DNA from: Salinimicrobium tongyeongense
GTDB taxonomy: Bacteria; Bacteroidota; Bacteroidia; Flavobacteriales; Flavobacteriaceae
Length of the DNA stretch: 64,000 nucleotides
NCBI RefSeq assembly: GCF_026109735.1
Contig: NZ_CP069620.1
Coordinates: 372,001 to 436,000 of the forward strand
Reading direction: 5' to 3'
In this document: positions 37,138-60,179 of the stretch, piece after piece
Position numbering within the stretch: the first letter of the stretch is position 1
How the letters are laid out: every line of letters starts with the position of its first letter
Program-made: the position numbers and the translations under genes
The notes under the pieces: generated by a model
The model's database searches: none
Told to the model about the DNA's origin: nothing
Seen by the model: the letters and a program-made list of their open reading frames with translations, nothing else

Positions 37138-38063
37138 TGAAAGGTTTTATCCTCTACATTTTAAAGATTCTTGGGGTATTTGTTATCGGGGTTGTTTTGC
37201 TGGAGCAGGTTTATGATCATGTTTTTAAAAAAGGTATAGTACGTAATAAACTTCAAAAAGTGCTATCCCTTGAAGAAGGAGATCATTATGAGTTTGTTTT
37301 TTTAGGCTCTTCCCGTACCGAGAATACTATTGATTGTGAGATTATTGAAAAAATCACAGGGAAGTCCTGTATCAATCTGGGGGTCGCCGGCAGTTCTCTT
37401 AAGGATTCATATGTCCTGCTTAAGCTTTTACTTGAAAAAGGGATAGTTGTAGACCATGTTTTTCTTCAGGTAGATTATTCCTATAACGAGAAGAGTGCTG
37501 ACCTTACCCCTGCTTTTAAAGCCACATTAATACCTTTTAGAAGTCATCCTGCTATCCGTGAAGAATTGGAGATTGAAGACGATGGTTCATATATCTTGAA
37601 TTTTCCATTTTATGCATATCTCAAATACGAAAAAATTGTAGGTTTTAGGGAAATTGTAAATCAAACCATCCTCAATGACTCAGGAAAGAATTATGAAAAT
37701 GGATTTTATCCTTTAACGGGTACAGGAAAACAACTCTACGGCTCCCTGCCTGCCAAAATAGCTAATACCAACAGGGTCCTGTCCAATATGGAAAAAATGG
37801 TTTCGGGAAAAAGAACAAAGCTTCACTATTTTTTTGCTCCCTATTGCCAGCAAGTTGAAAACAGGGACTATGCCATGAAACTGCAGGATAAGCTACCAGA
37901 AATTTATAATTATATTGACATTTTTGACAGGAAAGAAAATTTATTCGCTGACTGCGGACATTTAAATTTAAGCGGGGCTCAAGAATTTACAAAGATCCTG
38001 ATAACAGACTTCCTTCACAGGGAAGCAATGGATGAAAATGACAGGAATGGCGGAAACGAGTGA
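37137..38063 (+). CDS. membrane-anchored SGNH-like protein, MBOAT partner
   Basis: 308 residues: an N-terminal membrane anchor (residues 5-23), then FVFLGSSRTENT with the nucleophile-type serine around S58/S59, and late ADCGHLNLSG with D272 and H275 as the DxxH pair. This is the SGNH/AlgJ-AlgX layout. The protein would transfer the acyl group delivered by the MBOAT protein onto the glycan in the periplasm. The ATG shares one base with the MBOAT stop. The last eight residues (NDRNGGNE) and stop codon come from the first copy of a 71-bp repeat that invades the 3' end. Confidence 0.75.
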   Translation: MKGFILYILKILGVFVIGVVLLEQVYDHVFKKGIVRNKLQKVLSLEEGDHYEFVFLGSSRTENTIDCEIIEKITGKSCINLGVAGSSLKDSYVLLKLLLEKGIVVDHVFLQVDYSYNEKSADLTPAFKATLIPFRSHPAIREELEIEDDGSYILNFPFYAYLKYEKIVGFREIVNQTILNDSGKNYENGFYPLTGTGKQLYGSLPAKIANTNRVLSNMEKMVSGKRTKLHYFFAPYCQQVENRDYAMKLQDKLPEIYNYIDIFDRKENLFADCGHLNLSGAQEFTKILITDFLHREAMDENDRNGGNE

Positions 38064-38233
38064 CGGATTGCTTCGCTCCACCTGTCTGCCGATACTGGCA
38101 GGCTCTCAATGACAGGAATGGCGGAAACGAGTGACGGATTGCTTCGCTCCACCTGTCTGCCGATACTGGCAGGCTCTCAATGACAGGAATGGCGGAAACG
38201 AGTGACGGATTGCTTCGCTGCGCTCGCAATGAC
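38037..38233. repeat. 71-bp tandem repeat, 2.7 copies (GCAATGAC family)
   Basis: The unit begins AATGACAGGAATGGCGG and contains CGGATTGCTTCGCTCC and the short inverted pair TGCC/GGCA. Units start at 38037, 38108 and 38179. The third is shortened and ends GCGCTCGCAATGAC. It belongs to the same dispersed family as the repeats near 39.4/40.8, 42.7 and 44.1 kb. The first unit supplies the end of the SGNH gene; the array ends 20 bp before the next start codon. Confidence 0.85.
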
Positions 38234-46067: not shown

Positions 46068-46565
46068 TTGTTGTACAGCCTATCCAGCGGACTGAACGGC
46101 TTTCTCCTACCCAATTGTGCCACGTGAAGATAGGTTAAGGTGGTTTGGATATCTGCATGACCTAAAAGATCCTTTAGGCTCATAATATCCAGTCCCATTT
46201 CCAATAGGTGGATTGCATAGCTATGACGAAGGCTGTGAGAGGTAATCTCTTTTTGGATACCGCTGTGTTTGCGTGCCTCCAGTACGATCCATTGAACTCC
46301 TCTCGTGGACAAGGCAGTGGGATTATTTTCCCTGTCATAGCCATTGAAGCACCAGGTCGAAGGATTCTCTGCTGCGATTTACTTTTTCAGGCCACGGATC
46401 TGCAGCTTTGATAGGGGGACATATCGGTCTTTTCATCCTTTGCTCTGACGGATGTGGAGCATCTTTCGATCAAAATCCAGATCCCGGAGCTGCAGGTTGC
46501 GGAGTTAGAAACAACGCAGTCTACAGCTATAAAGCATGGCAAGGACAAGGCGGTGTTTAAAATTG
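46061..46565 (-). pseudogene. tyrosine recombinase (phage-integrase family), decayed
   Basis: Catalytic-domain pieces survive in several frames: KHRLVLAMLYSCRLRCF (arginine region) near 46540, RYVPLSKLQIRGLKK near 46420, CFNGYDRENNPTALSTRGVQ, then EITSHSLRHSYAIHLLEMGL (H-x-x-R) and DLLGHADIQTTLTYLHVAQL with the tyrosine near its end. The N-terminal core-binding domain is missing and several frameshifts are present. Its stop overlaps the IS91-type transposase start by seven bases. This pairing is known for IS91-like elements of Bacteroidota. Confidence 0.85.
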
Positions 46566-52666: not shown

Positions 52667-53620
52667 ATGCTAATAGATATTCTTCTACTCCTTGTAGGTT
52701 TTGTTGCTCTTATTTATGGAGCTAATTTTCTGGTGGATGCTGCTTCAAGCCTTGCCGCACGTTGGGGAGTACCCAGCATTGTGATTGGTTTGACCATTGT
52801 TGCATTTGGTACTTCGGCACCCGAGCTGGTAGTGAATGTCTTTGCTGCCACCACCGGTAGTACAGATATGGTGCTGGGCAACGTGTTGGGAAGTAATATT
52901 TTCAACGTCCTGGGGATCCTTGGAATCTCTGCCCTTATCTATCCGCTTACGGTAAAAAGCAATACCACCTGGATTGAAATTCCGCTGAGTTTACTGGCGG
53001 CAATTTGTGTGTTTGTCATAGCCTCTGATGTTGTTCTTGACGGTGCAACCACAAATCTTATCTCACGAAGTGAAGGTATTGTTTTGCTCCTGTTCTTCCT
53101 CATCTTCCTGGTTTATAACCTTATGGTGGCCAAAAGCGGGGGTGCCGATGAGGAAATTGAAACCAAAAGTTACAGCGTGGGAAAAGCAATTCTCTTTATA
53201 ATTCTGGGTCTTGCCGGATTAGTAATTGGCGGCAGGTTAATAGTTACCAGTGCTGTAAGTATTGCTGAAGTTATTGGCCTTTCTGAAAGGGTTATTGGCC
53301 TTACCGTAGTGTCTATAGGAACTTCCCTGCCCGAACTTGCAACTTCTGTGATCGCCGTGAGGAAAAAGAATGTGGATATTGCCATAGGAAACGTGGTAGG
53401 CTCCAACATTTTCAACATCTTTTTGATCCTTGGAATTTCCGGGACCATAGTTCCGCTGGATATCAATCCCGCTACCTTCTTTGATATTTTGGTGAACATA
53501 GTGACAGGTTTGCTGCTCTTTATTTTTGTTTTTACCGGAAGAGGTCGCAGTATCGAACGCTGGGAAGGCGCAGTATTTGTTATGGGCTACGTGGCCTATG
53601 TTACCTATTTAATAATTTAA
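52667..53620 (+). CDS. calcium/sodium antiporter (CaCA family, YrbG-like)
   Basis: 317 residues in two repeated halves of about five membrane segments. The alpha-1 repeat is TIVAFGTSAPELVVNVFAAT with GNVLGSNIFNVLGILGIS. The alpha-2 repeat is TVVSIGTSLPELATSVIAVR with GNVVGSNIFNIFLILGIS. The pairs of P-E and G-S-N-x-x-N residues bind Na+ and Ca2+. It exchanges the two ions across the inner membrane. It lies between two exported peptidase genes, 8 and 16 bp from each, so the three form one operon. Confidence 0.93.
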   Translation: MLIDILLLLVGFVALIYGANFLVDAASSLAARWGVPSIVIGLTIVAFGTSAPELVVNVFAATTGSTDMVLGNVLGSNIFNVLGILGISALIYPLTVKSNTTWIEIPLSLLAAICVFVIASDVVLDGATTNLISRSEGIVLLLFFLIFLVYNLMVAKSGGADEEIETKSYSVGKAILFIILGLAGLVIGGRLIVTSAVSIAEVIGLSERVIGLTVVSIGTSLPELATSVIAVRKKNVDIAIGNVVGSNIFNIFLILGISGTIVPLDINPATFFDILVNIVTGLLLFIFVFTGRGRSIERWEGAVFVMGYVAYVTYLII

Positions 53621-53636
53621 TTCTTACTGAGTTTTA

Positions 53637-56471
53637 ATGAGATCATCTGTAAAGTTCTATTTTCTTGCATTCCTGCTGAACTTGTATGTAGGAAACGCGC
53701 TGGCACAGCAAACGCCCGAAGCATCCCGTTTTGAAGTCGATTTTGAGACATTTACGCTTGACAACGGACTTAAAGTCATTTTCTACGTTGACAGGTCAGA
53801 TCCTGTAGTGGCGGTTGCCCTTACCAGTCACGTGGGTTCTGCCCGTGAAAAAGAGGGACGCACCGGGTTTGCCCATCTTTTTGAACACCTGCTCTTCCTG
53901 GAATCTGAAAATCTTGGAAAAGGCGGTCTGGATAAACTCAGTGCCCGCATTGGCGGCAGTGGCGCCAACGGGTCCACCAGCCGCGACCGCACCAATTATT
54001 TTCAAACTGTTCCAAATGACGCCCTTGAAAAAATGATTTGGGCAGAAGCCGATAAACTGGGGTATTTTATCAATACGGTTACAGAACCTGTTCTAGCCAA
54101 AGAAAAGCAGGTGGTAAAGAACGAAAAAAGGCAGAGAGTAGATAATCAGCCTTACGGGCACACCCAGTACGTGATCGATAAAAATCTATATCCAAAAGGC
54201 CATCCTTACAACTGGCAGGTGATAGGTTCCCTTGAAGATCTTCAAAATGCCACCCTGGCCGATGTTAAGGAGTTCTTCAATCAATGGTATGTACCCAATA
54301 ATGTGGTGCTTACCATCGCAGGGGATTTTGACACAGCACAGGCAAAACAGTGGGTGGAAAAATATTTCGGGGAAATAAAAAGAGGACCTGAAATTAAGGA
54401 CCTTGAGAAAAGGCCCGCTAATTTACAGCAGACAAAAAAGCTGTACCATGAAGACAATTTTGCCCGGCTTCCTGAATTGACAATGGCCTGGCCTTCTGTT
54501 GCTTCCTACCACCCGGATGCCTATGCCCTCGAAGTGCTGGCAAATTATCTTTCTGAAGGTAAAAATGCCCCGTTCTACAAAGCACTGGTGGCAGGTAAGA
54601 AATTAACTCCAAATGTACAGATGTTCAATTACACTTCTGAACTTGCCGGTCAATTCATGCTACAGGTGAGAGCTTACGAGGGCATAGATCTCGACGAGGT
54701 GCATCTGGCTGTAGAAGAAACCTTTAAAAGGTTTGAAGCTAAAGGTATTCCCGAAAAAGACCTGAAGCGTATCAAAGCAGGACAGGAAACTGCATTTTAC
54801 AGCAGTCTTTCCAGCGTTCTTGGCAAAGGCTTTCAGCTTGCCCAGTATGAGATCTTTGCGAACGATCCGGGCATGATCAACAAAGAGATCAACTACATTC
54901 TCGCAGTGACCCCGCAGGATGTGATGAGAGTCTATCAGAAATACATTAAAGATCAACCTTATGTTGCCACCAGTTTTGTTCCAAAAGCTCAGATAGAGCT
55001 GACATTAGAAGGTTCAGAACTGGCTGAAGTTGAGGAGGAACAAATAGTAATGGGTGCCGAGCAGGAGTTCGATCTTGAGGAAGAGGTGACCTACCAAAGA
55101 ACGCCGTCCAGTTTTGACCGAACTGTAGAACCTCCATACGGAGATTCACCTCAGGTAAAGGTTCCCGAAATTTGGGAGCAAAATCTGCAGTCTGGACTTG
55201 AGATTTACGGTATCACTAATTCTGAAGTACCTCTTGTACAGTTCATGCTCGAGATCAAAGGAGGAATGTTACTTGAAGACCCTGCAAAGATTGGCGTGTC
55301 CAATCTTCTGGCCGACCTCCTCACTAAGGGAACAAAAAACCGCACGCCGCAGGAACTCGAAGAAGCCATTGAACTGTTGGGTGCCAGCATTCGGGTGAAT
55401 GCTACAGATGAAAAAATGATCATTAGCGGTAGCACCCTCACCAGGAATTTTGATGAGACAATGGAGCTTGTTAAGGAGATTCTTTTAGAGCCGCGTTGGG
55501 ATGAGGAAGAATTTTCACTTATCAAACAGCAGGTGATAAGCAGGATTCAGCAGGAGAAAGCTAATCCAAACAACATTGCTTCAAATGAATTTAGAAGGCT
55601 TGTTTACGGCGAAGATCATATCCTGTCTCACAACAATATTGGAAATGAGGATACAGTTGAAAGAATAACGCTTCAGGATCTAAAGGCTTACTACAACAAT
55701 TATCTTTCTCCACATCTCGCTTCTTTCCTGGTGGTGGGAGATATTGGAAAAGAGGAAGCAGTAAACGGCGTGAAAGAACTCACCGCGGACTGGGGTGTCA
55801 AAAATGTCATTTTTAAGGAGCTTCCTGAAGTAACTGCCCCGGCTGAATCCAAGGTTTACTTTTATGATATTCCCGGCGCAAAACAATCTGTATTGCATAT
55901 TGGATATCCAGCTTTAGCTGAAACCAATGAGGATTTCTATCCTGCAAGCGTAATGAACTACCGTTTTGGGGGCGGAAGTTTCGCTTCCCAACTCACACAG
56001 GAATTAAGGGAAGGTAAAGGCTATACCTACGGAATCCGGTCCGGGTTCAATGGCAGCACATTTAAAGGTCCGTTTTTAATTTCGAGTGGTGTGAGAACCA
56101 ATATCACCTTTGAAGCAGTTGATCTAATAAAAGAGATCGCAGAGAATTATGCCGAAAGTTTTAATGAAAATGACCTGGAGGTAACCCAGGGGTTCATGAT
56201 AAAAAGTAATGCCCGAAAGTTTGAAACCCTGGGTTCTAAACTACAGATGCTTCAGGAAATAAAGGATTATAACAGGCCAAAAGATTATGTTTTACAGCAG
56301 GAAGAGACAGTGAGGAACATCACTGTTCCGCAGATTAAAGCCCTGGCAGAAAAATATGTTGATCCAAATAAAATGTATTACCTCATCGTGGGAGATGCAG
56401 CTACCCAACTGGACCGGCTGGAGCAGTTAGGTTTTGGAAAACCGGTGCTTATAAACTCTGCCGAAAAATAG
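53637..56471 (+). CDS. M16 family zinc peptidase, two-domain
   Basis: 944 residues with a signal peptide (residues about 1-23, ending NALA). The first M16 domain has the inverted zinc motif HLFEH (H80, E83, H84) and the distal glutamate E163 (VVKNEKRQRV). The second (from about residue 500) lacks HxxEH, as usual for the partner half of such fused M16 proteins, but keeps GGSFASQLTQELREGKGYTY near residue 790. It would degrade peptides in the periplasm or at the outer membrane. It is the last gene of the M14-antiporter-M16 operon. The tandem repeat array begins right after its stop. Confidence 0.92.
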   Translation: MRSSVKFYFLAFLLNLYVGNALAQQTPEASRFEVDFETFTLDNGLKVIFYVDRSDPVVAVALTSHVGSAREKEGRTGFAHLFEHLLFLESENLGKGGLDKLSARIGGSGANGSTSRDRTNYFQTVPNDALEKMIWAEADKLGYFINTVTEPVLAKEKQVVKNEKRQRVDNQPYGHTQYVIDKNLYPKGHPYNWQVIGSLEDLQNATLADVKEFFNQWYVPNNVVLTIAGDFDTAQAKQWVEKYFGEIKRGPEIKDLEKRPANLQQTKKLYHEDNFARLPELTMAWPSVASYHPDAYALEVLANYLSEGKNAPFYKALVAGKKLTPNVQMFNYTSELAGQFMLQVRAYEGIDLDEVHLAVEETFKRFEAKGIPEKDLKRIKAGQETAFYSSLSSVLGKGFQLAQYEIFANDPGMINKEINYILAVTPQDVMRVYQKYIKDQPYVATSFVPKAQIELTLEGSELAEVEEEQIVMGAEQEFDLEEEVTYQRTPSSFDRTVEPPYGDSPQVKVPEIWEQNLQSGLEIYGITNSEVPLVQFMLEIKGGMLLEDPAKIGVSNLLADLLTKGTKNRTPQELEEAIELLGASIRVNATDEKMIISGSTLTRNFDETMELVKEILLEPRWDEEEFSLIKQQVISRIQQEKANPNNIASNEFRRLVYGEDHILSHNNIGNEDTVERITLQDLKAYYNNYLSPHLASFLVVGDIGKEEAVNGVKELTADWGVKNVIFKELPEVTAPAESKVYFYDIPGAKQSVLHIGYPALAETNEDFYPASVMNYRFGGGSFASQLTQELREGKGYTYGIRSGFNGSTFKGPFLISSGVRTNITFEAVDLIKEIAENYAESFNENDLEVTQGFMIKSNARKFETLGSKLQMLQEIKDYNRPKDYVLQQEETVRNITVPQIKALAEKYVDPNKMYYLIVGDAATQLDRLEQLGFGKPVLINSAEK

Positions 56472-56815
56472 CATTTTTAAGACCTCTTGAAAATGTCATT
56501 TTTGAAACCTCTTGAAAATGTCATTTTTGAAACCTCTTGAAAATGTCATTTTTGAAACCTCTTGAAAATGTCATTTTTGAAACCTCTTGAAAATGTCATT
56601 TTTGAAACCTCTTGAAAATGTCATTTTTGAAAGCTCCTGAAAATGTCATTTTTGAAAGCTCCTGAAAATGTCATTTTTGAAAGCTCCTGAAAATGTCATT
56701 TTTGAAAGCTCCTGAAAATGTCATTTTTGAAAGCTCCTGAAAATGTCATTTTTGAAAGCTCCTGAAAATGTCATTTTTGAAAGCTCCTGAAAATGTCATT
56801 TTTGAAAGCTCCTGA
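56472..56815. repeat. 25-bp tandem repeat array with a dyad in each unit
   Basis: About 14 head-to-tail units of 25 bp without spacers. Units 1-6 have ACCTCTTG (the first unit is degenerate) and units 7-14 have AGCTCCTG; all share GAAAATGTCATTTTTGAA. Every unit holds the 13-bp dyad AAAATG-T-CATTTT. The array starts at the stop of the M16 gene and ends two bases before a terminator hairpin. It has no long frame, because 25 is not a multiple of three. The block change from one variant to the other shows expansion by unit duplication. Confidence 0.95.
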
Positions 56816-56817
56816 AT

Positions 56818-56849
56818 AAAAAATGCCCGGCAAACCCCGGGCATTTTTT
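56818..56849. terminator. bidirectional intrinsic terminator
   Basis: AAAAAATGCCCGG and CCGGGCATTTTTT pair perfectly around the loop CAAACC, with an A-run before and a T-run after. It can stop transcription of the M16 operon on the plus strand and the porin-pst-phoU operon on the minus strand, whose last gene ends at 56963. Confidence 0.9.
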
Positions 56850-56962
56850 ATTGCGTAACTGAAATCCTTGCTCCTGGTTCTTTCAGCAAAACGATTTTAT
56901 TTTTTGCGACAAAGTCATGAATTGAAATTGGAATCTGGTGCTTTAATTTTGGAATTTGACTC

Positions 56963-57646
56963 CTAAGAATCCTTCTTCCTTCCGCCTTTTTTCTTGCGGT
57001 GCTTCAAAACTTCAGCTTCCCTGAAGAAGATGATCTCTTCAGCAATATTGGTGATAAGATCGCCTATTCTTTCTACCTTTTTGATGACCGAAAACAATAA
57101 CATCACCTGATCTATCACCTGCGGATCTGCTTTGACTTCTTCAGAAATAATAGCAAAGGACTTCATATTGATCTCGTTGAGGATCTTGTCTTTTTTAAAT
57201 ACTTTTCGGGCCACTTTGGTATCGGCTTCAGTATAAGCCAGGGCAATATCGTCTAGCATTGACAATGCGGTGGAGAACATTTCTTCCACCCGCATTCTCT
57301 CGAGCAATCGAGCCTCGATTTGGGTATCAATCTTCACAATATAATTGGAAATTCCGTAGGCATGGTCCCCCACCCGCTCCAAGTCAAAATTGATCTTCCT
57401 TAAAGCCAGCACAAAACGCAGGTCGCTGGCCACCGGGTTGTGCAAGGCAATAAAGCGTTCACAATCGCGGTCAATCTTAAGATCGAGCGCATTTACGCGG
57501 TTTTCGGTATGCAGCACTTCTTCGGCAAGATCGCTGTCGTGATTAAAAAATGCCTCTCTGGCATTTTCCAGTTGCTTCATGCAAAGCTCCATCATTTCAA
57601 GCCCTGCCTGATTCAATGCCTCTCTATGTTGGTCCAGACTAATCAT
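56963..57646 (-). CDS. phoU: phosphate signalling protein PhoU
   Basis: 227 residues, all helical, in two three-helix bundles. EEVLHTENRVNALDLKIDRD (first repeat, E-x-x-x-D metal-type pattern) and SDLRFVLALRKINFDLERVG followed by DHAYGISNYI are the PhoU motifs. They are repeated as VARKVFKKDKILNEINMKS and LFSVIKKVERIGDLITNIAE. PhoU links the Pst transporter to the PhoR/PhoB-type phosphate response and dampens uptake. The C-terminus is lysine-rich (KHRKKKGGRKKDS). It is the last gene of the operon, 11 bp after pstB. Confidence 0.95.
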   Translation of the reverse strand: MISLDQHREALNQAGLEMMELCMKQLENAREAFFNHDSDLAEEVLHTENRVNALDLKIDRDCERFIALHNPVASDLRFVLALRKINFDLERVGDHAYGISNYIVKIDTQIEARLLERMRVEEMFSTALSMLDDIALAYTEADTKVARKVFKKDKILNEINMKSFAIISEEVKADPQVIDQVMLLFSVIKKVERIGDLITNIAEEIIFFREAEVLKHRKKKGGRKKDS

Positions 57647-57657
57647 ATTACTTTAGT

Positions 57658-58452
57658 TTATCCGAATCTACCGGTAATGTAATTCTCGGTTTGTTGTTTT
57701 TCGGGATTGGTAAATAGCTTTTTGGATTTATCGTATTCTATGAGTTCGCCCATGTAGAAAAATGCGGTGTAATCGCTGATTCTCCCTGCCTGCTGCATGT
57801 TGTGGGTCACAATTACAATAGTGTATTTCTCCTTGAGCTCGTAAATAAGCTCTTCGATCTTGGCTGTTGAGATGGGGTCTAATGCCGAGGTAGGCTCATC
57901 CATCAAAATAATGGAAGGCTCTACGGCAAGAGTACGGGCGATGCACAAACGCTGCTGCTGCCCGCCCGACAAGGCCAAAGCCGATTTATTAAGGTCATCC
58001 TGCACTTCGTTCCATAAACCTACCTGCTTTAGGGATTCTTCTACTTTATTCTGAAGAAAGGCTTTGTCTTTAATTCCCTGGATCTTTAATCCATAGGCGA
58101 CATTTTCATAGATGGACTTGGGAAAAGGATTAGGCTTTTGGAAAACCATTCCCACCTGTTTTCTTAGCTGTTCCACATTTACTTTTTTCTTGTAAATATT
58201 CTCTCCGTCTATAAGGATCTCCCCCTCCATGCTAAAGCCGTCAACATAGTCGTTCATTCGGTTAAAGAGCCTGAGGAAAGTCGATTTTCCACAGCCCGAA
58301 GGCCCGATAAAAGCCGTGATCTTGTTGGCCCTAATGTTCATGTCTATCCCTTTGATAGCCATAAAATCATCATAGAAAACCTTCACGCCTTTTGCCTGAA
58401 GTTTATGTTTTCTCTTGAGGGACTTATCTAATGTATCTTTATTTTCTTTCAT
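57658..58452 (-). CDS. pstB: phosphate ABC transporter ATPase PstB
   Basis: 264 residues from the ATG at 58452, directly after the pstA stop; a longer reading to 58503 would overlap pstA and is not supported. Walker A is GPSGCGKST (residues 50-58), the Q-loop lies in [13 protein letters not shown], the signature is LSGGQQQR (161-168) and Walker [13 protein letters not shown] (181-192). It powers phosphate import through PstA and PstC. The KPNPF[11 protein letters not shown] run is specific for PstB. Confidence 0.97.
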
Positions 58453-58453
58453 T

Positions 58454-59308
58454 CTATTTAAATTTACTCTGCCACCTGTTCCTGAAATACACTGCAATTC
58501 CATTCAGAATAAATGTAATTAAAAGCAGGACGATTATGGCTGCGGCTGCGTTGATCTCAAAGCCGTGTTTGGGGCGGGAGATCCAGTTAAAGATCTGTAT
58601 GGGCAATACTGAAAATTCATCCATGGGAGATTCGGGCGCAAACGGCACATAGGCCAGTGCTCCAATAACAATTAGCGGCGCAGTTTCTCCCACCGCTCTT
58701 GAAAGGGCTAAAATCACTCCCGTGAGTATGCCTCCAAAAGATGCCGGCAGCAGTTGTTGGGAAACTGTTTGCCACTTTGAAGCTCCCAGGGCAAAGGAAG
58801 CATCTCTTATAGATTTTGGCACCGCCTTTAAACTTTCTCTCGTGGCTACAATTACAATGGGCAAAATCAAAAGGGCCAGCGTAAAACTTCCTGCCAAAAC
58901 ACTGGCACCCATTTCCATGATGCGCACAAAGACCTCCAGGCCAAGTAGTCCGTAGATGATTGACGGTACTCCCGCAAGATTGGAGATATTGACTTCCAGC
59001 AAAGAAGAAAGCCGGCTTTGTTTGGCGTATTCTTCCAGGTAGATAGCCGCTGCAATTCCCAGGGGCAGGGCAATAATGGTGGTGAACACGAGGATCCATA
59101 CACTTCCCATTAGTGCGGTATATATTCCGGCTCTTTCTGCTTTTCTCGACGGAAGGCTCGTGATAAAATCCCAATCAATCCTTTGCAGTCCATCTATAAG
59201 AATTGAACCTATAAAGATGGTGAGAAGAATGAGCCCCAGGAAGGTACAGGCAATCCCCCAAATCTTGAAAGCCTGATCTTTTAACCTGTTTGTTTTAATA
59301 TTATTCAT
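58454..59308 (-). CDS. pstA: phosphate ABC transporter permease PstA
   Basis: 284 residues, six membrane segments. [20 protein letters not shown] and [20 protein letters not shown] with [20 protein letters not shown] form the EAA loop that docks on Pst[21 protein letters not shown] follows, typical of PstA. It overlaps the pstC stop by eight bases. It forms the phosphate channel with PstC. Confidence 0.96.
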
Positions 59309-60179
59309 ATTTCTCCCTGAATTTTTTCCTAATCCTGTAACTCACGGTGTTGAGCAGGAAGGTAAAGATGAAAAGAGTGATCCCGGCAGCAAAGATGGTA
59401 CGGTACTCCAAGGAGCCGTGTTGCACATCGCCCAGGCTCACCTGAACTATGTAAGCGGTAATGGTTTCTACGGGAACTGTAGGGTCTAAAGTTAACCTGG
59501 GCTGTTGCCCCGCCGCAATGGCCACGATCATGGTTTCCCCAATGGCCCGCGAAATAGCAAGGATGATAGAAACTATAATCCCCGATGAAGCTGCAGGAAC
59601 CAGTACCCGAAAGGCATTTTGCAACTTGGTGGAACCCATGCCGTAAGCGGCTTCCCGCAAAGAATTGGGTACCGCATGCAAAGCATCTTCACTTAACGAC
59701 GAGATGAAAGGAATGATCATGATCCCCATCACCAGGCCGGCAGACAGGGAATTAAAACCCGAAAGCCCCGGAATAAACGACTGCAGGAAAGGCGTAACCA
59801 CGGTTAGGGCAAAAAACCCGTATACCACGGTTGGCACGGCAGCCAGCAATTCCAAAGCAGGTTTAATTGTCTTCCTGAAGCTTCGCGGCGCGTACTCGCT
59901 AATATAAATACTGATAGACAAGCCCACCGGCACCGCAAATATGATGGCAATGAAAGAGGTTAACAGGGTCCCCGACAACAACGGCAGTATCCCAAAGTGC
60001 TTGTCGGTGTACAGTGGCGTCCATTGTGTATCTGTGAGGAAATCGACAATGGAAACCTCTCTAAAGAAATTTACGGCTTCTATAGAAAGTACCAGGATGA
60101 TACCAACAGTCACTGCAATAGTAACCAGAGCACTTCCCAAAAGGCTCTTTTCTATTAGCGTTTCTTTTATTTTTCGCAT
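59301..60179 (-). CDS. pstC: phosphate ABC transporter permease PstC
   Basis: 292 residues, six membrane segments. FLTDTQWTPLYTDKHFGILP with LLSGTLLTSFIAIIFAVPVG is the PstC start. LELLAAVPTVVYGFFALTVV, HAVPNSLREAAYGMGSTKLQ (the EAA loop) and ILAISRAIGETMIVAIAAGQ follow. It lies 47 bp downstream of pstS. It forms the inner-membrane channel with PstA. Confidence 0.96.
   Translation of the reverse strand: MRKIKETLIEKSLLGSALVTIAVTVGIILVLSIEAVNFFREVSIVDFLTDTQWTPLYTDKHFGILPLLSGTLLTSFIAIIFAVPVGLSISIYISEYAPRSFRKTIKPALELLAAVPTVVYGFFALTVVTPFLQSFIPGLSGFNSLSAGLVMGIMIIPFISSLSEDALHAVPNSLREAAYGMGSTKLQNAFRVLVPAASSGIIVSIILAISRAIGETMIVAIAAGQQPRLTLDPTVPVETITAYIVQVSLGDVQHGSLEYRTIFAAGITLFIFTFLLNTVSYRIRKKFREKYE

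Follow-up and report, generated by a model that had tools for sequence, protein, structure and literature searches.

A 25-bp tandem array in Salinimicrobium tongyeongense and a palindromic site dispersed through its genus

A tandem array of 25-bp units between two convergent genes of Salinimicrobium tongyeongense repeats a palindrome, AAAATG-N-CATTTT, that recurs throughout the chromosome. The site is dispersed, restricted to the genus and in excess within genes, and it has a fixed spacer, a free centre and independent arms. We lean, with somewhat better than even confidence, towards the view that the array grew by tandem amplification from a single copy of this genus-specific site, which would be a putative protein-binding site of probably architectural function. 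Positions below are those of the window, that is, the whole stretch of 64,000 nucleotides that was analysed.

The array and its history in the genus

The features of the array and its surroundings are as follows.

53637-56471, + strand: gene for an M16-type peptidase of 944 aa, upstream of the array (open reading frame; homologues found)
55801-55813, no strand assigned: dispersed copy of the core within the M16 coding sequence (core scan)
56465-56489, + strand: degenerate first unit AAAATAGCATTTTTAAGACCTCTTG (direct reading, TRF, alignment of relatives)
56490-56614, + strand: five perfect 25-bp units AAAATGTCATTTTTGAAACCTCTTG, ending ACCTCTTG (sequence)
56615-56814, + strand: eight perfect 25-bp units AAAATGTCATTTTTGAAAGCTCCTG, ending AGCTCCTG (sequence)
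56815-56852, no strand assigned: predicted terminator hairpin AATAAAAAATGCCCGG-CAAACC-CCGGGCATTTTTTATT, in the gap where the M16 and PhoU-like genes converge (sequence, predicted fold)
56963-57646, - strand: convergent PhoU-like gene, 227 aa (open reading frame; sequence and position beside phosphate-transport genes)

We take the first of these genes to belong to the M16 family, following the sequence-only reading and general knowledge, and the convergent gene is presumably PhoU-like, a name likewise given from general knowledge. TRF describes a repeat at 56465-56816 with period 25, 14.1 copies, 98% matches and 0% indels, and its score of 592 is the highest of the 10 TRF rows in the window. 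Together with direct reading, this confirms an array of about 14 head-to-tail units, 13 of them perfect (56490-56814) and followed immediately 3' by the terminator. The array cannot be a product of chance, because an 18-base core recurs in it 13 times at exact 25-bp steps. The extent first proposed, 56472-56815, was right as to the repeat and wrong as to its start, which lies 7 bases earlier at 56465; the first unit overlaps the M16 gene, and its core AAAATAGCATTTT includes the M16 stop codon TAG (56469-56471). Other structural claims of the sequence-only reading were borne out: the 13-bp dyad is present in each perfect unit, the 25-bp step corresponds to about 2.4 turns at 10.5 bp, the unit type changes in a block after the fifth perfect unit, and the array is not a CRISPR, as the units lie directly head to tail and unique spacers are absent.

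Two other repeats were noted on the way. Positions 38037-38219 of the window hold a 71-bp unit in 2.6 copies with no mismatch and a GC-rich end, GCTTCGCTGCGCTCGCAATGACA. AT-rich direct repeats CAAATTCCAAG/GAACCTTGAA occur at L104:7086-7182 and L104:13859-13959, two places in a sampled stretch of the chromosome; they have many matches in several Salinimicrobium genomes, and similar words lie near window position 56951.

The closest named relatives of the M16 gene belong to Salinimicrobium species (8 loci, 74-86% identity). In S. profundisediminis (L023), the same gap contains one full unit with ACCTCTTG on either side, and a half site with one base missing lies at the M16 stop codon. S. xinjiangense (L022) retains nothing beyond a degenerate half site at that codon, and no core was found in the gap at the other six Salinimicrobium loci (L018, L019, L020, L021, L024 and L025). 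As an account of the array's history, the earlier suggestion of a polymorphic minisatellite therefore fits well, with two unit types in blocks and a number of head-to-tail units that varies between species (14 here, one in L023 and none in the seven others). The ACCTCTTG type is probably the older, because the sole full unit of L023 has it on both sides, and the AGCTCCTG block probably spread in the present lineage. The M16 protein tree does not resolve the nearest species, and therefore the order of array growth is not assignable. The core inside the M16 gene is exact in five of the eight other Salinimicrobium loci (L018, L019, L021, L022 and L023) and in none of 72 loci from other genera.

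The array is the only one of its kind among 12 Salinimicrobium genomes. Other close pairs of sites are few and varied in spacing, with a 25-bp step in one (G008) and 26-46 bp between the others (G000, G003 and G006). For these reasons, the array may have arisen by accident.

A dispersed site restricted to Salinimicrobium

The decisive step was a genome-wide search for further units, which the sequence-only reading had proposed and which returned hundreds. The unit core AAAATGTCATTTTNGAAA has 22 exact matches genome-wide, 13 of them in the array, and a 22-mer search allowing up to 3 mismatches gave 60 + 58 matches (control 0). For the 16-base extension AAAATGNCATTTTTGA there are 158 forward and 181 reverse exact matches, 339 in all, again with 13 in the array and none for the reversed control. 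This dispersed site is abundant in Salinimicrobium and not in related genera. Ten of the 11 other Salinimicrobium genomes carry 7-401 matches to AAAATGNCATTTTTGA on the two strands together (G003 401, G010 159, G005 152, G008 152, G006 139, G009 103, G007 79, G011 79, G002 18 and G004 7), and the 74% complete genome G001 has none. The maximum in 48 genomes of the family and order is 2, and 246 genomes of other Flavobacteriaceae genera have 0-2 matches each, on a par with the reversed control.

The site was characterized in a sample of 464 kb, array excluded, made up of the window and twenty stretches spread over the chromosome (L098-L117; 400 kb, 11% of the genome). It should be noted that site density in this sample is biased upwards, because the stretches were partly placed where matches had been listed. 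In an unbiased scan for inverted repeats with 6-bp arms and spacers of 0-5, AAAATG-N-CATTTT was the commonest, with 72 sites against 9 for the next independent repeat, and it again came first in 120 kb of G003 (34 against 5). Fragments of the same motif are the most frequent intergenic 12-mers. No equivalent palindrome was prominent in six other genera, in a weak test on pools of 44-105 kb around one orthologous gene. In the sample, 72 core sites correspond to 66 matches of the 16-mer, and scaling the 326 non-array AAAATGNCATTTTTGA matches by this ratio (72/66) gives about 350 sites in this chromosome. Forward matches number 12, 14, 29 and 25 in successive intervals of 0.5 Mb up to 2 Mb (first 100 of 158 matches, array aside), and the distribution over these and two centre-base subsets (one of them 100 of 116) is uneven, with no sharp domain. 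A viral scan revealed no dense carrier among the 80 loci listed; all but two of these have one match each, the exceptions being a locus with two matches and a locus whose single symmetric site was counted on both strands.

The excess of cores is due neither to chance nor to codon usage. Genes of the sample contain 35 cores, compared with 0-4 in 20 synonymous-codon shuffles, and intergenic regions contain 33, compared with 0-1 in 20 third-order Markov sequences. The 72 exact cores comprise 37 within ORFs and 35 between them, the lower figures of 35 and 33 arising when sites that cross an ORF edge are dropped; an ORF was accepted on its length (at least 80 aa), which makes the coding and intergenic labels approximate. 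Density between genes is sevenfold that within genes (33 in 56.7 kb versus 35 in 408.6 kb). In stretches L100-L117, most sites within ORFs are read as N-(A/V/D/G)-I-F, a frame that makes the free base the second position of a G-N-C codon. A second intergenic word, CTTCGGAA/TTCCGAAG, often lengthened to TTTCTTCGGAAA, occurs 47 times in the 56.7 kb between ORFs and 178 times in the rest of the 464 kb. It was rejected as a partner motif: CTTCGGAA lies within 80 bp of 8 of the 35 intergenic sites, a weak excess over 300 random draws, which averaged 3.7 and reached at most 9.

Comparison of orthologous positions among relatives indicates that individual sites turn over. The exact core is kept in three of five relatives at L106:1922, in none of six alignment rows at L106:2816 and in one of four at L106:4574; likewise, it is kept in one of three at L104:7555, in the single relative at L104:13072 not at all, and in two of six at L104:14013. 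Four of nine relatives have the exact core at L104:10410, and three of those four differ in the centre base (C in G006 and G008, A in G010), which may represent two events only, since G006 and G008 resemble each other. At L106:1922 and at the site within the M16 gene, relatives without the core align with no gap; these sites thus arose by substitution, and mobile insertion was rejected for them. Some intergenic alignments carry gaps and do not decide between insertion and substitution.

In two genomes, the core is also found on integron-like cassettes. Ten of the 18 AAAATGNCATTTTTGA matches of G002 are on two low-GC gene-cassette contigs (L138 and L139), and G011 has similar contigs (L147 and L148). 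The cassettes are separated by attC-like sites, each roughly 130 bp long with inverted ends that are conserved, and the core is present in 15 of the 19 such sites in which both ends were recognised on these four contigs, L138 and L139 sharing one copy. In five cases, judged by eye, the right end of one attC-like site is the exact complement of the next left end, as expected of cassettes. No protein of the 12 genomes scored above the cut-off of a curated integron integrase model, the weaker matches being general recombinases. The core carried by cassettes may have travelled between species. Other elements noted on these contigs are an IS110 transposase ORF at the end of L138 and L139 and, on L147, two ORFs, one for a group II intron maturase and one erythromycin-esterase-like. 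The window itself contains, at 46076-46564 on the - strand, a tyrosine recombinase remnant with in-frame stops that matches the integron integrase model weakly.

Nature of the site and rival explanations

The symmetrised profile gives a wider consensus, A-S-S-T-Y-Y-C-AAAAATG-N-CATTTTT-G-R-R-A-S-S-T, in which the centre base is free. Beyond the core, the profile has C at position -8, a pyrimidine at each of -9 and -10, T at -11, S (G or C) at both -12 and -13, and A at -14, all mirrored on the other side, and an A at -17, also mirrored, is found in 81% of intergenic sites and 54% of in-gene sites. The outer A-S-S-T box is itself symmetric, and both unit types of the array obey it (ACCT and AGCT). 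In the array unit, two positions of the left arm, TTGAAAATG, carry minority letters, and the predicted affinity of the unit may for this reason be moderate.

The spacing of the two arms is strict, with 85 cases of a 1-base spacer and only 1-3 cases for each of the spacers 0 and 2-7. Across 106 sites, the arms are complementary at 438 of the comparisons made over positions 7-17, whereas 464.7 matches are expected from independent half sites; in smaller sets, three of 36 position tests fell below p = 0.05 (0.009, 0.022 and 0.030), with more complementarity than expected and at positions that are not adjacent. Because the arms match no better than independent half sites, the motif points to a symmetric protein site and not to a hairpin. 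Arms that vary independently, an invariable 1-bp spacer and a centre base without preference are best read as the mark of a symmetric, presumably dimeric, sequence-specific DNA-binding protein. The earlier proposal of a protein-binding array is upheld in part, in that the dyad of the units recurs across the genome and bears the marks of a symmetric protein operator. A second ParB/Noc-type protein was sought as a candidate binder and was not found in the 12 genomes searched: the ParB/Noc-type HTH protein is single-copy in 11 of 12 genus genomes, with none in the incomplete G001 and no paralogue.

Under the reading that we favour, a near-site at the M16 stop codon would have grown into the array by unequal copying, and a symmetric dimeric protein would bind the roughly 350 sites genome-wide in a probably architectural role. 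That role is suggested by the indifference of the sites to promoters and terminators and by their presence within genes as well, and it is a weaker proposition than the symmetric protein itself. In our reading of the array, the +11 to +14 box of one site would, at a 25-bp step, be the -14 to -11 box of the next, so that neighbours share one A-S-S-T box and form a dense cluster, which would concentrate or titrate the protein. Flank conservation reaches +/-17 and spans 29-35 bp, and neighbouring array sites overlap because their 25-bp spacing is shorter than this span. Therefore, not all neighbours could be bound independently, and alternate occupancy or continuous assembly would be needed.

Irrespective of any function of the dispersed sites, the array may be a neutral minisatellite, produced by slippage or unequal recombination and without a role, a proposition that we regard as evenly balanced. 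The series from a half unit in L022 and one full unit in L023 to none at six other loci, the blocks of identical units and the singularity of the array within the genus all agree with it. Against it, the repeated unit is exactly the most abundant palindrome of the genome, and both unit types agree with the wider consensus, the block change from ACCT to AGCT staying within A-S-S-T, which fits retention and is no proof of it. The protein-array and minisatellite readings are compatible and each partly right; since they are not mutually exclusive, our confidence in the two overlaps and does not sum to certainty. A hairpin, in RNA or as a cruciform, has far less to recommend it. The predicted RNA of 56472-56860, terminator included, folds strongly (-120.6 kcal/mol versus -62.7 +/- 5.0 when shuffled, z -11.7), and tandem palindromes do pair with one another, which would suit a 3' mRNA stabiliser or a REP-like element. 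The string of small hairpins proposed by the sequence-only reading is nevertheless not supported as the basis of the motif: the arms do not covary, the spacer is fixed at 1 base, in-gene sites were gained by substitution and an Rfam search of 53000-60000 returned no match. On the arm test and the fixed spacer, a hairpin was rejected as the motif's cause, and we consider an element of this kind most improbable.

Two further explanations concern the dispersed sites, and both seem unlikely to us. If a transcription regulator controlled a very large regulon through these sites, their operator-like symmetry and sevenfold greater density between genes would be accounted for. However, the 33 intergenic sites with both neighbours known divide into 5 convergent, 9 divergent and 19 tandem gaps (15, 27 and 58%), against 20, 25 and 55% expected from intergenic length; the sites track that length, with no preference for divergent or promoter-bearing gaps or for terminators, and half of all sites are inside genes. 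Ten genes next to sites have no functional theme: they include an APP1 phosphatase, an L,D-transpeptidase, a GDSL lipase, an MgsA-type ATPase, a rhomboid protein, a Na/Ala symporter, an M61 peptidase and a pseudouridine synthase, and two have no family or a poorly described one. The lack of orientation bias and the mixed neighbours speak for a genome-wide role rather than a specialised regulon. Alternatively, molecular drive could have accumulated the motif as a DNA uptake sequence or another self-recognition tag. This would explain the genus restriction, the hundreds of copies in and between genes, the gain by substitution and the differing counts between species. Known uptake sequences are not palindromic, whereas here the full palindrome with a spacer of 1 is required, and lone CATTTTTGA without a preceding TGN occurs 47 times against 23-67 for its one-letter variants, no clear excess in a weak test. 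The family does include a species, Riemerella columbina, that takes up its own DNA preferentially according to PMC7965970, which also mentions the uptake sequences of Neisseriaceae and Pasteurellaceae. We give this alternative the same low standing as the regulon.

More tentatively, and somewhat short of an even chance, Salinimicrobium may have its own site-specific, genome-wide DNA-binding system, in which a putative nucleoid-organising or self-marking protein uses about 350 sites in this chromosome that spread to further positions in genes and gaps within the genus, and the array beside the M16 gene is a natural high-density cluster of them.

Comparison with known systems

A palindrome of 13-19 bp is under genome-wide pressure in one genus, and its species range from none to about 400 matches. 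This series is well suited to studying the origin of a new chromosome-wide site together with its protein, and the array offers a simple high-avidity bait for finding the candidate protein. We know of no such system in Bacteroidota, and none was found in the open-access literature; searches there with the exact core strings gave, among the matches listed, titles on Leishmania and insects.

The HIP1 element of cyanobacteria (GCGATCGC) is a short palindrome far above chance genome-wide, taxon-restricted, and low or absent in some members (PMC4390886). The Salinimicrobium site is likewise a taxon-restricted palindrome, perfect except for one free centre base and far above chance throughout the genome. 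HIP1 differs in being an 8-bp, GC-rich sequence without a spacer that is tied to methyltransferases with targets inside it, whereas the present site is 13-19 bp long, AT-rich and operator-like, with a free centre and weaker flanks to +/-17.

MatP/matS, Noc/NBS and SlmA/SBS are systems in which palindromes of about 13-16 bp are repeated along one chromosome and each is bound by a dimeric protein; matS has an odd length and a free centre, and matS, NBS and SBS sites number in the tens and are strongly biased towards particular regions. The Salinimicrobium palindrome is similarly repeated along the chromosome, in and between genes, and shares its free centre with matS, but it has about 350 sites and no sharp domain in the part examined (first 2 Mb, forward matches). 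The DNA uptake sequences of Neisseriaceae and Pasteurellaceae are non-palindromic genus-level dialects with hundreds of copies, also in genes. Our site resembles them in genus-level occurrence, copy number and presence in genes, and differs in being palindromic, with both arms required.

REP/BIME elements are dispersed extragenic hairpin palindromes, sometimes paired or arrayed, that are spread by transposase. The Salinimicrobium palindromes are also dispersed and may stand in pairs or arrays; in contrast to REP/BIME, they occur within genes as well (37 of 72 sampled sites in ORFs), arise there by substitution, and show no hairpin behaviour, their arms not covarying. Finally, the array has the 25-bp tandem units, variant blocks and between-species difference in copy number of a minisatellite or VNTR, and it departs from that class in repeating a site that occurs genome-wide.
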